From Alphaproteobacteria bacterium (GTDB lineage: Bacteria > Pseudomonadota > Alphaproteobacteria > ATCC43930 > CGMCC-115725), in the NCBI GenBank assembly GCA_021325525.1, contig JAJPHB010000077.1, forward strand, positions 62,001 through 126,000: a DNA stretch of 64,000 nucleotides, read 5' to 3'. The translations under genes were made by a program, and so were the position numbers. The notes under the pieces are model-generated. The model searched no databases, was not told where the DNA came from, and worked only from the letters and a program-made list of their open reading frames with translations. Below, one piece after another: positions 15,768 through 20,342 of this stretch (positions are counted from its first letter, which is position 1; every line of letters starts with the position of its first letter).

Positions 15768-17114
15768 ATGGCGCGGGGGGTGCGGATCGTGCTCCTGCGA
15801 GGCTTGCTCGGCCTCGCGCTTGCCGCCGTCGCGACGCTGCCCGGTTCCAGCGGGGCGGCGCGAGCGCAAGGCTTTCTCAGCCAATTTCGCGCGGCCGTGA
15901 CCGCGGTCCATGGCACCTTGACCTTCAACGTCGAAGAAAACGTCGTCGGCACGCTGACCGACGGGGCGAGCTACAGCCTCCCGTTCACCCTCGACCGGGT
16001 GACCTTCACGGGCGGTCAATTCACCATCGCTTCGACCTACACCTTCGCCTCGGCGACGCAGAGCGGCAACGTCATCACCTTCACCGGCGTGCATTCGACG
16101 GCGGAGGGCTCGGCGCCCTATACCTGCTCGATCGATCTGGCGACCGGCGGCTCCTCGGGCAATTGCGAAGGCTTTCTCGGCCTCGGCGGCGTGACTGCGA
16201 CGCAACAGGCGGTCGCGGCCAGCTCGCTCGGCATTTTGCGCGACGAGACCCGAGCCGTCTCGACGATGATCGGCGATCGCGTGCGCGACATCGCGCGCGA
16301 CCTTGCCCGCGGTCAAGGAACGGGCGCGACGACCGGGCGGGGCGCGCAGTCGGGCCTCGCCGCCGGCGAGGCCCCGGCCCGCTACGGCAGCTGGGCCGAC
16401 GCCTCCGGCTCCTATATCAGGAACGATGCGGCCGGGAAGGCCTATCAGGGCACCGGCACCACCGCGCTTGCCGGCCTCGACGCCGTCATCGGCGACAGCT
16501 GGGTCGTCGGCTTCACCGCGGGCTACAACCGCGCCGACCTCACTCTCCAAAGCCTGAGCAGCAGCCGGCTGACCCAAGGTTCCGTCGTCGGGCCCTATGT
16601 CTCCTACGTCATCAATCAGCATTTCACCGTCGACGGCAACTTCACTTACGCGCGCCTTTCGAACGATGTCACGACCGGGCCGTCGCCCGTGCTGCACACC
16701 AGCTTCTCCTCGAACCGCTTCGTCGGCGCCGTAAACGGCAATTATTTCGCCGATATCGGACCGCTGTCGCTCACCGGATTTACCGGCTACACGCTCGCCT
16801 ACGAGCATGCGCAGCACTATACCGATCCCACCGGCACGCCGTTTCCCTCGCTCGTCACCCGCTACGGCGCCGTGAAGGTCGGGGGCGAGGTCAGCTACCC
16901 GCTCGGCGATGCCGAACCGTACCTGCCGATCTCCTACGAGTATCAGACGACGGCGCCGGAGGATGGCGCCGGACGGTCGGCGCTCGTCGTTGGGCTCGGC
17001 CTGCGCTATCGTTTTGGCGACGCGCTGAAGGCCGGCATCGCCGTCACGGACGAGGAGCTGCGCGCCCACGAGCGCAACGCGACGATTGCCGCCAATCTGC
17101 GCTTCACCTTCTGA
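15768..17114 (+). CDS. Autotransporter-type outer-membrane beta-barrel protein
   Basis: 448-residue exported protein. A signal peptide (hydrophobic core VLLRGLLGLALAAVATLPGS, cleavage near ARAQ) is followed by a short beta-rich domain (residues about 35-130) with one likely disulfide pair (the C in YTCSIDL and in SGNCEGF), a helical linker (RDETRAVSTMIGDRVRDIAR), and a barrel of roughly 220 residues starting near YGSWADASGSYIRND. The last residue is phenylalanine in LRFTF, the usual outer-membrane insertion signal. The passenger is far shorter than in classical autotransporters, so it may be an anchor or pore rather than a released effector. The ATG has AGGGGG eight bases upstream. The caspase gene begins 25 bp after the stop. 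Confidence 0.8.
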   Translation: MARGVRIVLLRGLLGLALAAVATLPGSSGAARAQGFLSQFRAAVTAVHGTLTFNVEENVVGTLTDGASYSLPFTLDRVTFTGGQFTIASTYTFASATQSGNVITFTGVHSTAEGSAPYTCSIDLATGGSSGNCEGFLGLGGVTATQQAVAASSLGILRDETRAVSTMIGDRVRDIARDLARGQGTGATTGRGAQSGLAAGEAPARYGSWADASGSYIRNDAAGKAYQGTGTTALAGLDAVIGDSWVVGFTAGYNRADLTLQSLSSSRLTQGSVVGPYVSYVINQHFTVDGNFTYARLSNDVTTGPSPVLHTSFSSNRFVGAVNGNYFADIGPLSLTGFTGYTLAYEHAQHYTDPTGTPFPSLVTRYGAVKVGGEVSYPLGDAEPYLPISYEYQTTAPEDGAGRSALVVGLGLRYRFGDALKAGIAVTDEELRAHERNATIAANLRFTF

Positions 17115-17139: not shown

Positions 17140-19467
17140 ATGGCTTCGCGCTCACGCCTCCTTCTCCTGTCGCTCCTCGTTCCGTTGCTCGCCGCGCCCG
17201 CGCCCAGCTCGGCGCAGGGCTTGCTGCGCATGCAGACAAATCGCGTCCAGGACGCGATCCGCAACCAGCTTCGGCAAGCGGTGAAGCCGCTCCTCGCGGT
17301 GCGCAATTCGGCGGGCGAGGTCGAGGCGCTGTCGCTCAGCCCCGACGGGCACTATCTCGCGATCGTCCTGCATGACGCGACGGTGCGGCTCTGGGATCTG
17401 CGCGGCGGCCTCGAAATCGCCCGCTTGGCGAGCCCGGGCGGACGGTTTCGCGCGGTCCGCATCTCGGCCGATGGCCGCCTCGTCGCCACCGGTTCGGAAG
17501 GCGGCGGCGCGGCGATTTGGGATGCGGCCTCGGGGACTCTCCTCCAGCAGCTCGCGGGGCATCAAGGCGCGGTGACGGTGCTCGCTTTCTCGCCGGATGG
17601 CGCGCTTCTCGCGAGCGGCGGCGCCGACGGCACCATTCGCCTCTGGGACGCGCGGACCGGCGCGGCGGCCGCGACGTGGCGCGGCCATGCGGGCGAGGTC
17701 GATGCCGTGGCGTTTTCCAAGGACGGCGCCATGGTCGCGAGCGGCGGCGCGGACGGCCGCGTCATCCTCTGGGACCGCAGCCGCGGCACGCCGCTCGCGC
17801 GCTTCGCGGCGGCAGGCGGCCGCATCGTCGCGGTCGGCTTCGATGCGTCGGACCGCATCGTCGCCAGCACCGCCGACGGGGTCGTCCATCTCTGGGAGCG
17901 CAGCGGCCAGCAACCGGCGCGCACCTTCCGCGCTGCGCCCGCTGCCGCCTCGGCGCAAATCTCCGGCGACGGCAAATTCGTTGCGGTCAGCGACGCCTCG
18001 GCCAAGGTCAATCTCGTCGAGCTCGATAGCGGCCGCCTCGTCCGCGCCATCGACGCGCCGTCGGGCTCGTCGCGCTACGTCCTCGTCGATGTCGCGCAGC
18101 GGCGAATCCTCACCGGCGGCGCCGATGGTGCCGTGCGCGTCTGGAATATCGGCGACGGCGCAGATCTGGCGCAGATCATCTCGACCTTGGGCGGCTGGGC
18201 CGTGATCGACGCGCAGGGGCGCTTCGACGGCTCGCAGCAGGGCGTCGACGACGTGCGCTGGGTCGCGAACCAGACGGCGCTCCCCATCGACCACTTCTCG
18301 CCGCAATTCTACGAGCCCGGCCTGCTGGCGAAGCACATGGCCGACCGGCCGAACTTCGTCGCCGCGGCGCCGAGCGCGATCGCCGACGGCATCCTTCTGC
18401 CGCCGCAAAGCACGATCGCGGCGCCGCCCGGCACCTATGTCGAGGGCGGCACGGTCGAGGTCACCGTCACGGCGCAGGATGAGGGCGGCGGCATCGGCAC
18501 GGTGCGGCTCTTCCAGAACGGCAAGCTGCTTCCGCGCGAGGCGGTGCTGCGCGAGGACAACGACATCCGCAGCCGCGTCGCCGTCCGCACCACGGTCTTC
18601 CGCGCGACGCTCGCCGCCGGCAGGAACCATTTCGAGGGCTCGGCCTCGAGCCAGAGCCAAATCGACGGGATCGCGGCCACTCTCGACATCGTCGCCGGCG
18701 GCCCGCCGGTTCTGCCGAACCTCCATATCGTCACCGTCGGCATCAACAAGTACCGCGACCGCGACCTCGACCTCGATTACGGCGCGCCCGATGCGCTCGC
18801 CATCCTCCAGCGCCTCAGCCAGGCGACGGCCGGAGTCTTCGACAAGGTTGTCGCCTACAAGCTCCTCGACGGGGCGGCGACGCGCGCCGATATCCTCGCC
18901 GTGCTCGACGGCCTGCGCCGGACGCGCCCGGACGACGTCGTCGCGCTCTACCTCGCGGGCCATGGCGAGATCATCGGCAAGGAGTGGTATTTCCTGCCCG
19001 ACGACGCGTCGGTGGCGAGCGCCGACGCGCTGGCGCGCAGCAGCATCTCGGCGACGCAATTCCGCGATGCGCTCTCCCGCATCGGAGCCCAGCGCATCCT
19101 CGTTCTCATCGATGCCTGCAAATCGGGCGGCAGCATCGATGCCTTCTCGGGGGCCATGGACCGCAAGCTGCTGCGCGAAGTGGGCCGCGAGGCCGGGGTC
19201 GCCATCCTGGCGGCGACGCGCAAAGACCAGCTCGCCGCCGAGCTGCCGTCTCTGGGGCACGGCGCCTTCACCTATGTCCTCCTCGAAGGGCTTGCCGGAA
19301 AGGCCGACCGCGATCCCGCGGACGGGCGCATCACCGCGGCGAAGCTGTTGGGCTGGTCGCAGCGCGCCCTGCCGAGCTTCACCGAGCGCTCGTTCAATTA
19401 CCTTCAGGTCCCGGTCGCCTACAGCCGCGGCGCCGATTTTCTGCTGAGCCGGCTGGCGCAGCGGTGA
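17140..19467 (+). CDS. Secreted WD40 propeller-caspase (peptidase C14) fusion protein
   Basis: 775-residue protein with a signal peptide (LLLLSLLVPLLAAPAPSSAQ), so it should act outside the cytosol. Residues about 55-350 contain seven blade ends (VRLWDLR, AAIWDAA, IRLWDAR, VILWDRS, VHLWERS, VNLVELD, VRVWNIG), a complete seven-bladed WD40 propeller. An Ig-like linker (about 430-530) follows, then a caspase domain (about 535-775) with intact catalytic H608 in LYLAGHGE and C660 in VLIDACKSGG. The caspase fold is at the carboxyl end, so the propeller probably senses or docks. It is 25 bp after the barrel gene, and its stop overlaps the next gene's GTG start by four bases. Protease activity is inferred from the dyad; target and specificity unknown. 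Confidence 0.9.
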   Translation: MASRSRLLLLSLLVPLLAAPAPSSAQGLLRMQTNRVQDAIRNQLRQAVKPLLAVRNSAGEVEALSLSPDGHYLAIVLHDATVRLWDLRGGLEIARLASPGGRFRAVRISADGRLVATGSEGGGAAIWDAASGTLLQQLAGHQGAVTVLAFSPDGALLASGGADGTIRLWDARTGAAAATWRGHAGEVDAVAFSKDGAMVASGGADGRVILWDRSRGTPLARFAAAGGRIVAVGFDASDRIVASTADGVVHLWERSGQQPARTFRAAPAAASAQISGDGKFVAVSDASAKVNLVELDSGRLVRAIDAPSGSSRYVLVDVAQRRILTGGADGAVRVWNIGDGADLAQIISTLGGWAVIDAQGRFDGSQQGVDDVRWVANQTALPIDHFSPQFYEPGLLAKHMADRPNFVAAAPSAIADGILLPPQSTIAAPPGTYVEGGTVEVTVTAQDEGGGIGTVRLFQNGKLLPREAVLREDNDIRSRVAVRTTVFRATLAAGRNHFEGSASSQSQIDGIAATLDIVAGGPPVLPNLHIVTVGINKYRDRDLDLDYGAPDALAILQRLSQATAGVFDKVVAYKLLDGAATRADILAVLDGLRRTRPDDVVALYLAGHGEIIGKEWYFLPDDASVASADALARSSISATQFRDALSRIGAQRILVLIDACKSGGSIDAFSGAMDRKLLREVGREAGVAILAATRKDQLAAELPSLGHGAFTYVLLEGLAGKADRDPADGRITAAKLLGWSQRALPSFTERSFNYLQVPVAYSRGADFLLSRLAQR

Positions 19468-20342
19468 GGGCCGGCGGAGCGGCCGTCGCGGCGCTTTGCT
19501 TCGGTCTCGTGCTGCTTTGCGGAGCAGCGGGTTGTACGAGCCGCCTCGATGCGGCGCGCGGGGTCGCGGCGGAGATCGCCTCCCGAGGCGGTCTCGAGGA
19601 ACGGGTCTTCGATGGTGGCGGCTTCCGCCTCCAGGGCTGGCGGCGCCGCGGTCAGGCCCGGGACTCCATTCTCGCCGTCTATCTCGAAGGCGACGGCCGC
19701 GCCTGGATAGACCGCGGCCGGCTCGCGACCGACCCGACGCCGACCGACCCCGTGGGGTTGCGCCTTGCTGCCGCCGATCCTGCGCCGGCGCTGCTCTACC
19801 TCGCGCGTCCCTGTCAATATCTCGGCGCCGCCGCGCCGCCCTGCGCGCCGCGCTATTGGTCGGAAGCACGCTTCGCCCCCGAGATCGTCGCCGCGACCGC
19901 TGCCGCCATCGATCGCGCCAAGGCCGAGGCCGGCGCCGCCGAGCTCGAGCTCATCGGATATTCCGGCGGCGGCGTTCTCGCGGCACTGATCGCCGCCGAG
20001 CGCCATGACGTGGCACGGCTCGTCACGGTCGCGGCGCCGCTCGACCTCGGCGCCTGGACGCGCCTCGAAGCCGTGAGCCCGCTTTCGCAATCGCTCGACC
20101 CCGTGCGCTTCGCCGCGGCGCTGGCGCGCATTCCGCAGACGCATTTCGCCGGCGCCAAGGACGGGATCGTCCCGCCGGCGCTAGCCGATTCCTATCGCCG
20201 CCGCCTCGGCGACCGCGCCCCCGCGCGGATCATCGTCGTCCCGGGATTCACCCATGACTGCTGCTGGGCCCGCGATTGGCCGCGCCTCATCGCCGCGGCG
20301 CGCGAGAGCGGCCGGGACCGCGGCTCCGCCGCATCTCGTTAA
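19464..20342 (+). CDS. Lipoprotein with alpha/beta-hydrolase domain
   Basis: 292-residue predicted lipoprotein starting with GTG, coupled to the caspase gene by a GTGA overlap. The hydrophobic signal VAALCFGLVLLCGAAGC ends at a lipobox-like cysteine. The mature part is an alpha/beta hydrolase: nucleophile S167 in LIGYSGGG, likely acid D233 in GAKDGIVPP and H264 in GFTHDCCW, a complete triad. Additional cysteines (ARPCQYLG, APPCAPRYW, DCCW) suggest disulfides in the periplasm. Family assignment beyond serine hydrolase is uncertain. A longer upstream reading in the same frame overlaps the caspase gene and is not used. Confidence 0.8.
   Translation: MRAGGAAVAALCFGLVLLCGAAGCTSRLDAARGVAAEIASRGGLEERVFDGGGFRLQGWRRRGQARDSILAVYLEGDGRAWIDRGRLATDPTPTDPVGLRLAAADPAPALLYLARPCQYLGAAAPPCAPRYWSEARFAPEIVAATAAAIDRAKAEAGAAELELIGYSGGGVLAALIAAERHDVARLVTVAAPLDLGAWTRLEAVSPLSQSLDPVRFAAALARIPQTHFAGAKDGIVPPALADSYRRRLGDRAPARIIVVPGFTHDCCWARDWPRLIAAARESGRDRGSAASR

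Follow-up and report, generated by a model that had tools for sequence, protein, structure and literature searches.

The window, a stretch of 64,000 nucleotides of alphaproteobacterial DNA, carries on the plus strand at positions 17140-19467 a gene for a protein of 775 amino acids (ATG at 17140, stop codon at 19465-19467), present in a single copy in its own genome. The protein combines a signal peptide, a WD40 propeller, an Ig-like domain and a caspase domain in one chain (Table 1). The same locus also holds an outer-membrane barrel gene, which ends 25 bases upstream of the caspase gene on the same strand, and a hydrolase gene downstream; both lie outside the region covered by the initial annotation. 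Long antisense open reading frames (for example 17152-19869, minus strand), the usual shadows in GC-rich DNA, were rejected because homology and codon scoring favor the plus-strand genes. By inspection, the signal peptide reads MASRSRLLLLSLLVPLLAAPAPSSA followed by QG. Comparable signal peptides were recognized by eye at the N-termini of full-length homologues, in line with the clean signal peptide of the initial annotation. This putative export signal points to an envelope location for the protein.

Table 1. Features of the caspase locus (positions in the window; aa, residues of the precursor).
Feature	Position	Strand	Evidence or remark
Outer-membrane beta-barrel, 448 aa: signal peptide, beta-rich N-terminal part, linker helix, autotransporter barrel	15768-17114	+	PF03797, E 7e-16
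Barrel linker helix GILRDETRAVSTMIGDRVRDIARDL	16230-16304	+	Similar to caspase N-terminal helix
Caspase signal peptide, aa 1-25	17140-17214	+	Probable cleavage between SSA and QG, by inspection; homologue N-termini comparable
Caspase mature N-terminal helix QGLLRMQTNRVQDAIRNQLRQAVKP, aa 26-50	17215-17289	+	Low model confidence; proposed docking helix
Seven-bladed WD40 propeller, aa 51-349	17290-18186	+	PF00400, AF2 model, Foldseek
Linker with conserved GW....GRFDG...EPGLL motifs, aa 350-413	18187-18378	+	Homologue alignment
Ig-like domain Big_7, aa 414-520	18379-18699	+	PF17957, 27.8 bits; strands in models
Caspase (C14) domain, aa 521-775: D551, H608, D658, C660, E701	18700-19464	+	PF00656; invariant residues; MALT1 fold
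Alpha/beta-hydrolase, 292 aa, probable lipoprotein (lipobox-like GAAGC), GYSGG nucleophile elbow	19464-20342	+	Overlaps caspase stop by 4 bases

Profile matches to WD40 and C14 were far above chance. PF00400 matched the propeller region in six stretches, and an AF2 model of the mature chain, built with 23 sequences, reached a mean pLDDT of 87.6 and a pTM of 0.82. Strand counting in this model gave seven four-stranded blades within precursor residues 61-349, with an additional N-terminal strand at 51-54. In Foldseek, the solved seven-bladed nvWrap-T matched at a TM-score of 0.91 (rmsd 2.1, 289 columns). The domain is thus a WD40 propeller with the seven complete blades that had been counted from the sequence. 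Because the whole-chain fold search was dominated by WD40 hits, the C-terminal half was modelled separately (pLDDT 84.6). Its top solved fold was MALT1 (E 3.4e-10), followed by Ig-containing MHC chains. The Ig-like linker proposed earlier is confirmed by a match to Pfam Big_7 (27.8 bits, cut-off 24.1) together with strands in the models.

The caspase domain matched PF00656 with 46.6 bits (cut-off 21.4), and its sequence profile retrieved metacaspases in the PDB. With respect to the p10 region, on which the choice between orthocaspase and metacaspase turns, this Pfam match by itself extends to model position 198 of 233. H608 and C660, the dyad named in the initial annotation, are found exactly at these positions and are invariant, along with D551, D658, S662 and E701, in 29 homologues with identities down to 28%. 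The PF00656 match, the invariant His-Cys dyad, and the model with its MALT1 match place the protein in peptidase family C14, and invariant D551, D658 and E701 supply the acidic S1 residues of C14B. D551 and D658 correspond to the S1 residues Asp95 and Asp211 of TbMCA2 (PMC6426788), according to profile alignment to metacaspases and motif. The three residues together correspond to the acidic S1 positions Asp365, Asp462 and Glu500 of MALT1 (PMC4357240), E701 being assigned from its position in the loop that follows the next strand, not from a superposition. Because the S1 pocket is acidic, the enzyme is predicted to accept Arg or Lys, not Asp, at P1. The competent site and S1 pocket that the initial annotation had expected are supported, and the comparison with C14 proteins that it proposed yields this specificity. 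In paracaspases, as defined in PMC6426788, a Pfam Ig domain (PF00047, PF13895 or PF13927) precedes p20; none of these was found here, the Ig-like domain being Big_7 (PF17957). We therefore do not file the protein as a paracaspase, though it may work in a paracaspase-like manner.

The upstream protein is an autotransporter-type barrel: its PF03797 beta-domain is matched still more strongly in homologues (E 2e-25 and 3e-18), and the chain terminates in Phe (...ANLRFTF). In the window barrel, a beta-rich segment of about 100 residues (approximately aa 45-150) precedes the helix; it is absent from the barrels of the two nearest relatives.

To follow this neighbor, we predicted genes in 38 context loci using our own codon-usage script and searched them with the window barrel by BLAST and then by profile. 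By one or the other, a barrel was found no more than three called genes from the caspase in 24 of the 38 loci, two of these barrels (L035 and L046) being visible only in six-frame translation. Elsewhere in the context loci, only one of 425 called genes matched the barrel. The profile was trained on 21 of the barrels found, for which the independent evidence is BLAST (E 4e-3 to 1e-28); those of L033, L035, L046, L085 and L087 are profile-only detections. Overall, 27 of 39 caspase genes, in nine families, have a barrel nearby: the 24 loci, a weak case in L085, the window itself and G008, in which the barrel and the beginning of the caspase gene lie on one contig. In the total of 39, two fragments that probably belong to a single gene are counted once. 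The remaining 12 have no barrel nearby, some of them lying at contig ends. The weak match beside the L085 caspase (L085:244-1137), in a low-GC genome, keeps the helix-then-barrel layout with a diverged helix pattern. Across the nine families the barrel stands upstream of, divergent from, or downstream of the caspase, and the link therefore outlasts rearrangement.

Co-occurrence gave a matching picture. Among 39 genomes of the family, the barrel (E 1e-8) was present in G000, G008 and G009 only, exactly the three with a close caspase homologue; the chance of such an overlap is 1/C(39,3)=1.1e-4. In G009 the two genes are not neighbors but sit on separate contigs, so that co-occurrence there goes beyond mere linkage. 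In the order to which G206 belongs, the barrel was found in 8 of 17 genomes, the identical eight that carry the caspase; this is weaker support because the genes are linked there. Altogether, the barrel is well supported as a conserved partner of the caspase. A conserved neighborhood of this kind is evidence of a functional link, not of contact.

Other neighbors vary more. The hydrolase recurs no more than two genes from the caspase in L036, L087, L089 and L091, from four further families, with the surroundings of its Ser and His conserved. Genes for CHASE2-adenylate/guanylate cyclases, absent from the window, lie within four genes of a WD40-caspase in twelve loci of five families (L034:4296-6251, L040:11268-13205, two in L036, L037-L039, L045, L051-L054 and L091). 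This protein, a periplasmic sensor joined to a maker of cyclic nucleotides, may belong to the same pathway as the caspase. At L041:2738-4666, a fused OmpA-caspase-DUF4384 protein directly adjoins the WD40-caspase, the genes overlapping by 4 bases. Behind the caspase, four genomes of a single family encode a conserved exported protein (about 290 residues) that has no clear Pfam assignment (L080:2502-3392, L082:8038-8907, L083:8914-9792, L086:11366-12232). We rejected a defense origin for the locus, as PADLOC returned only generic caspase and repeat models and the neighbors are envelope genes, and likewise a phage origin, as there were no PHROG hits.

When the N-termini of caspase and barrel were compared side by side, the exposed, mature N-terminal helix of the caspase was seen to resemble the helix preceding the barrel. 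Amphipathic helices easily look alike, and in the AF2 model the caspase helix has low confidence (pLDDT 46-55). Among 17 representatives, helices of matched caspase/barrel pairs outscored those of mismatched pairs with p 0.03 when signal peptides were left within the segments and p 0.001 when they were trimmed; other or smaller sets of representatives gave p 0.003-0.03. Local composition explains part of this gap, with a smaller effect (17.4 vs 16.6). The strongest pair, found later than this test, is that of G009, in which GLLRSQTEAITGAIENQIREAVR and GVLRDQSEAVTDAIFDRIRDLSR are identical at 12 of 23 positions (score 58). In 20,000 shuffles that kept the hydrophobic pattern, the maximum was 47 and none reached 58.

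Profile searches were also used. In a six-frame search of 0.9 Mb, a profile of two caspase helices ranked the barrels of G009 (E 0.003) and G008 (E 0.009) highest among hits other than caspases. In the reverse search with a barrel-only profile, a chance minus-strand frame (E 0.016) outranked the caspases (0.02-0.09). A joint profile, built from these same sequences, had strong matches only at the caspase and the barrel in the whole genomes of G000, G009 and G008, and no strong match anywhere in three relatives that lack both genes. Outside the window's own family the similarity is weak, with individual p values mostly of 0.01-0.5 and some of 0.8-0.96. Judged from sequence, the shared helix is likely to be real in the window's own family and is suggestive in others. 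The initial annotation had proposed that the propeller might gate the protease by binding a ligand or the barrel encoded upstream. The importance of the barrel is strongly supported by neighborhood and co-occurrence; the sequence link, on the other hand, runs through the N-terminal helix and not through the propeller, whose gating role is hypothetical.

Homologues of the caspase are scattered across genomes, with similar signal peptides. A close homologue is present in 3 of the 39 family genomes; full-length homologues were found in 11 of 277 genera in a class-wide sample (E 1e-20) and in 13 of 213 genera in a phylum-wide sample (E 1e-30). A tblastn search of plasmids yielded nothing closer than distant WD40 or caspase proteins; these came from Rhizobium, Sulfitobacter, Pseudoroseomonas and others, partly Alphaproteobacteria, which makes Pseudomonadota the probable phylum of the sample. 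In the two plasmid regions inspected, no barrel was annotated beside such a protein. One of the plasmids, NZ_CP090101.1 of Rhizobium leguminosarum (L093), carries near the start of its record a row of genes made up of four large caspase-family members and one for a lysozyme.

Bacterial caspases have mostly been treated as cytoplasmic effectors of cell death or defense, and their partners are, to our knowledge, unknown. Among the extra domains of bacterial metacaspases, WD40 is the most frequent (10.9%), and a 2012 study already pointed to likely signal peptides in some of these proteins (PMC3501461); cyanobacterial orthocaspases frequently carry WD40 as well (PMC8283722). The present protein shares with these the C14 domain and WD40 repeats in one chain. 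The initial annotation, which called this architecture little described, was therefore half right: exported WD40-metacaspases are already known, and what is new is the barrel partnership. We found no description of this partnership or of the shared helix in the literature searched, a collection with few subscription papers or preprints. An N-terminal helix that is probably a signal peptide also occurs in some bacterial metacaspases. Unlike the widespread metacaspase-NACHT-WD40 arrangement, the order here is signal peptide, propeller, Big_7 and caspase, and unlike in the bacterial WD40-metacaspases described, the acidic pocket is invariant and the protein has a conserved partner in the outer membrane. 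It resembles the paracaspase MALT1 in the fold of its C-terminal half, in the Ig-like domain beside the caspase and in the three acidic S1 positions, but it is bacterial and exported, its Ig domain is a Big_7 preceding the caspase, and WD40 takes the place of the death domain. MaOC1, an orthocaspase of Microcystis, is likewise a bacterial caspase of basic specificity (predicted in our case) with a protein encoded next door, on which MaOC1 acts (PMC7935541); that protein, however, belongs to a toxin-antitoxin module as its antitoxin, whereas the partner here is an outer-membrane barrel. The barrel itself has the beta-domain, linker helix and terminal Phe of autotransporters. In contrast to these, most of its homologues have little or no passenger, and it is partnered by a separate protease with an N-terminus similar to the linker helix.

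We consider it somewhat probable that the caspase is an envelope protease specific for Arg/Lys, which the helix docks to the barrel and the propeller directs to its target. According to this model, an exported orthocaspase- or paracaspase-like cysteine protease would cut after Arg or Lys in the cell envelope and would act as a pair with the adjacently encoded outer-membrane barrel. Its mature N-terminal helix could pair with the similar pre-barrel helix or replace it in the barrel, and so would tether the enzyme to the outer membrane on its inner side. Recruiting or sensing a ligand or target would fall to the seven-bladed propeller, with the Ig-like domain connecting it to the protease. The first candidate substrate would be the Arg-rich linker helix of the barrel.

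That helix is central to another, rather unlikely reading in which the barrel is the substrate: the caspase would cut the linker at its Arg-rich stretch during maturation, so that the portion ahead of the barrel is released or gated, with its own helix occupying the active site as a pseudosubstrate until the protease is exported or bound. Among 16 aligned homologues with a mean column identity of 23%, only one residue outside the barrel never varies, R158, the first Arg of the linker helix. In addition, the linker is rich in Arg, the predicted S1 pocket accepts Arg and the caspase helix begins with the same GxLR. However, the linker alignment is loose and Arg is common there, so that a single Arg column may be a product of the alignment; a structural, pore-facing Arg would also account for the invariance of R158; and many barrels have hardly any passenger to release. 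We give a similarly low probability to the possibility that barrel, caspase, hydrolase and, elsewhere, the CHASE2-cyclase are co-regulated envelope-stress genes whose products make no contact, the helix likeness being due to chance. The weak helix similarity in most families and the differences between taxa in the genes beyond the barrel are consistent with this. It is at odds with a barrel that keeps its place beside the caspase in nine families although orientation and gene order change, with co-occurrence even where the genes are unlinked, and with a helix identity in G009 that exceeds all shuffles. That the caspase is inactive, its propeller and Ig-like domain scaffolding an envelope complex and its protease domain serving as a binding module, is very improbable: pseudo-orthocaspases are common in Alphaproteobacteria (PMC6426788), but they lose the dyad, whereas none of the 29 homologues departs from the dyad or the acidic pocket.

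We tentatively extend the model of a helix-docked envelope protease, as a possibility held with less confidence than the model itself, to a two-part surface-to-periplasm system that is widespread in the phylum. An event at the barrel would switch on Arg/Lys-directed envelope proteolysis through recognition of the shared helix, as an extracytoplasmic counterpart of intracellular adaptor-caspase pairing. From its conserved and specific outer-membrane partner, the exported caspase can be assigned a probable location and candidates for its regulator and its substrate; the pairing with the barrel further suggests that the Gram-negative envelope, too, makes use of caspase proteolysis.
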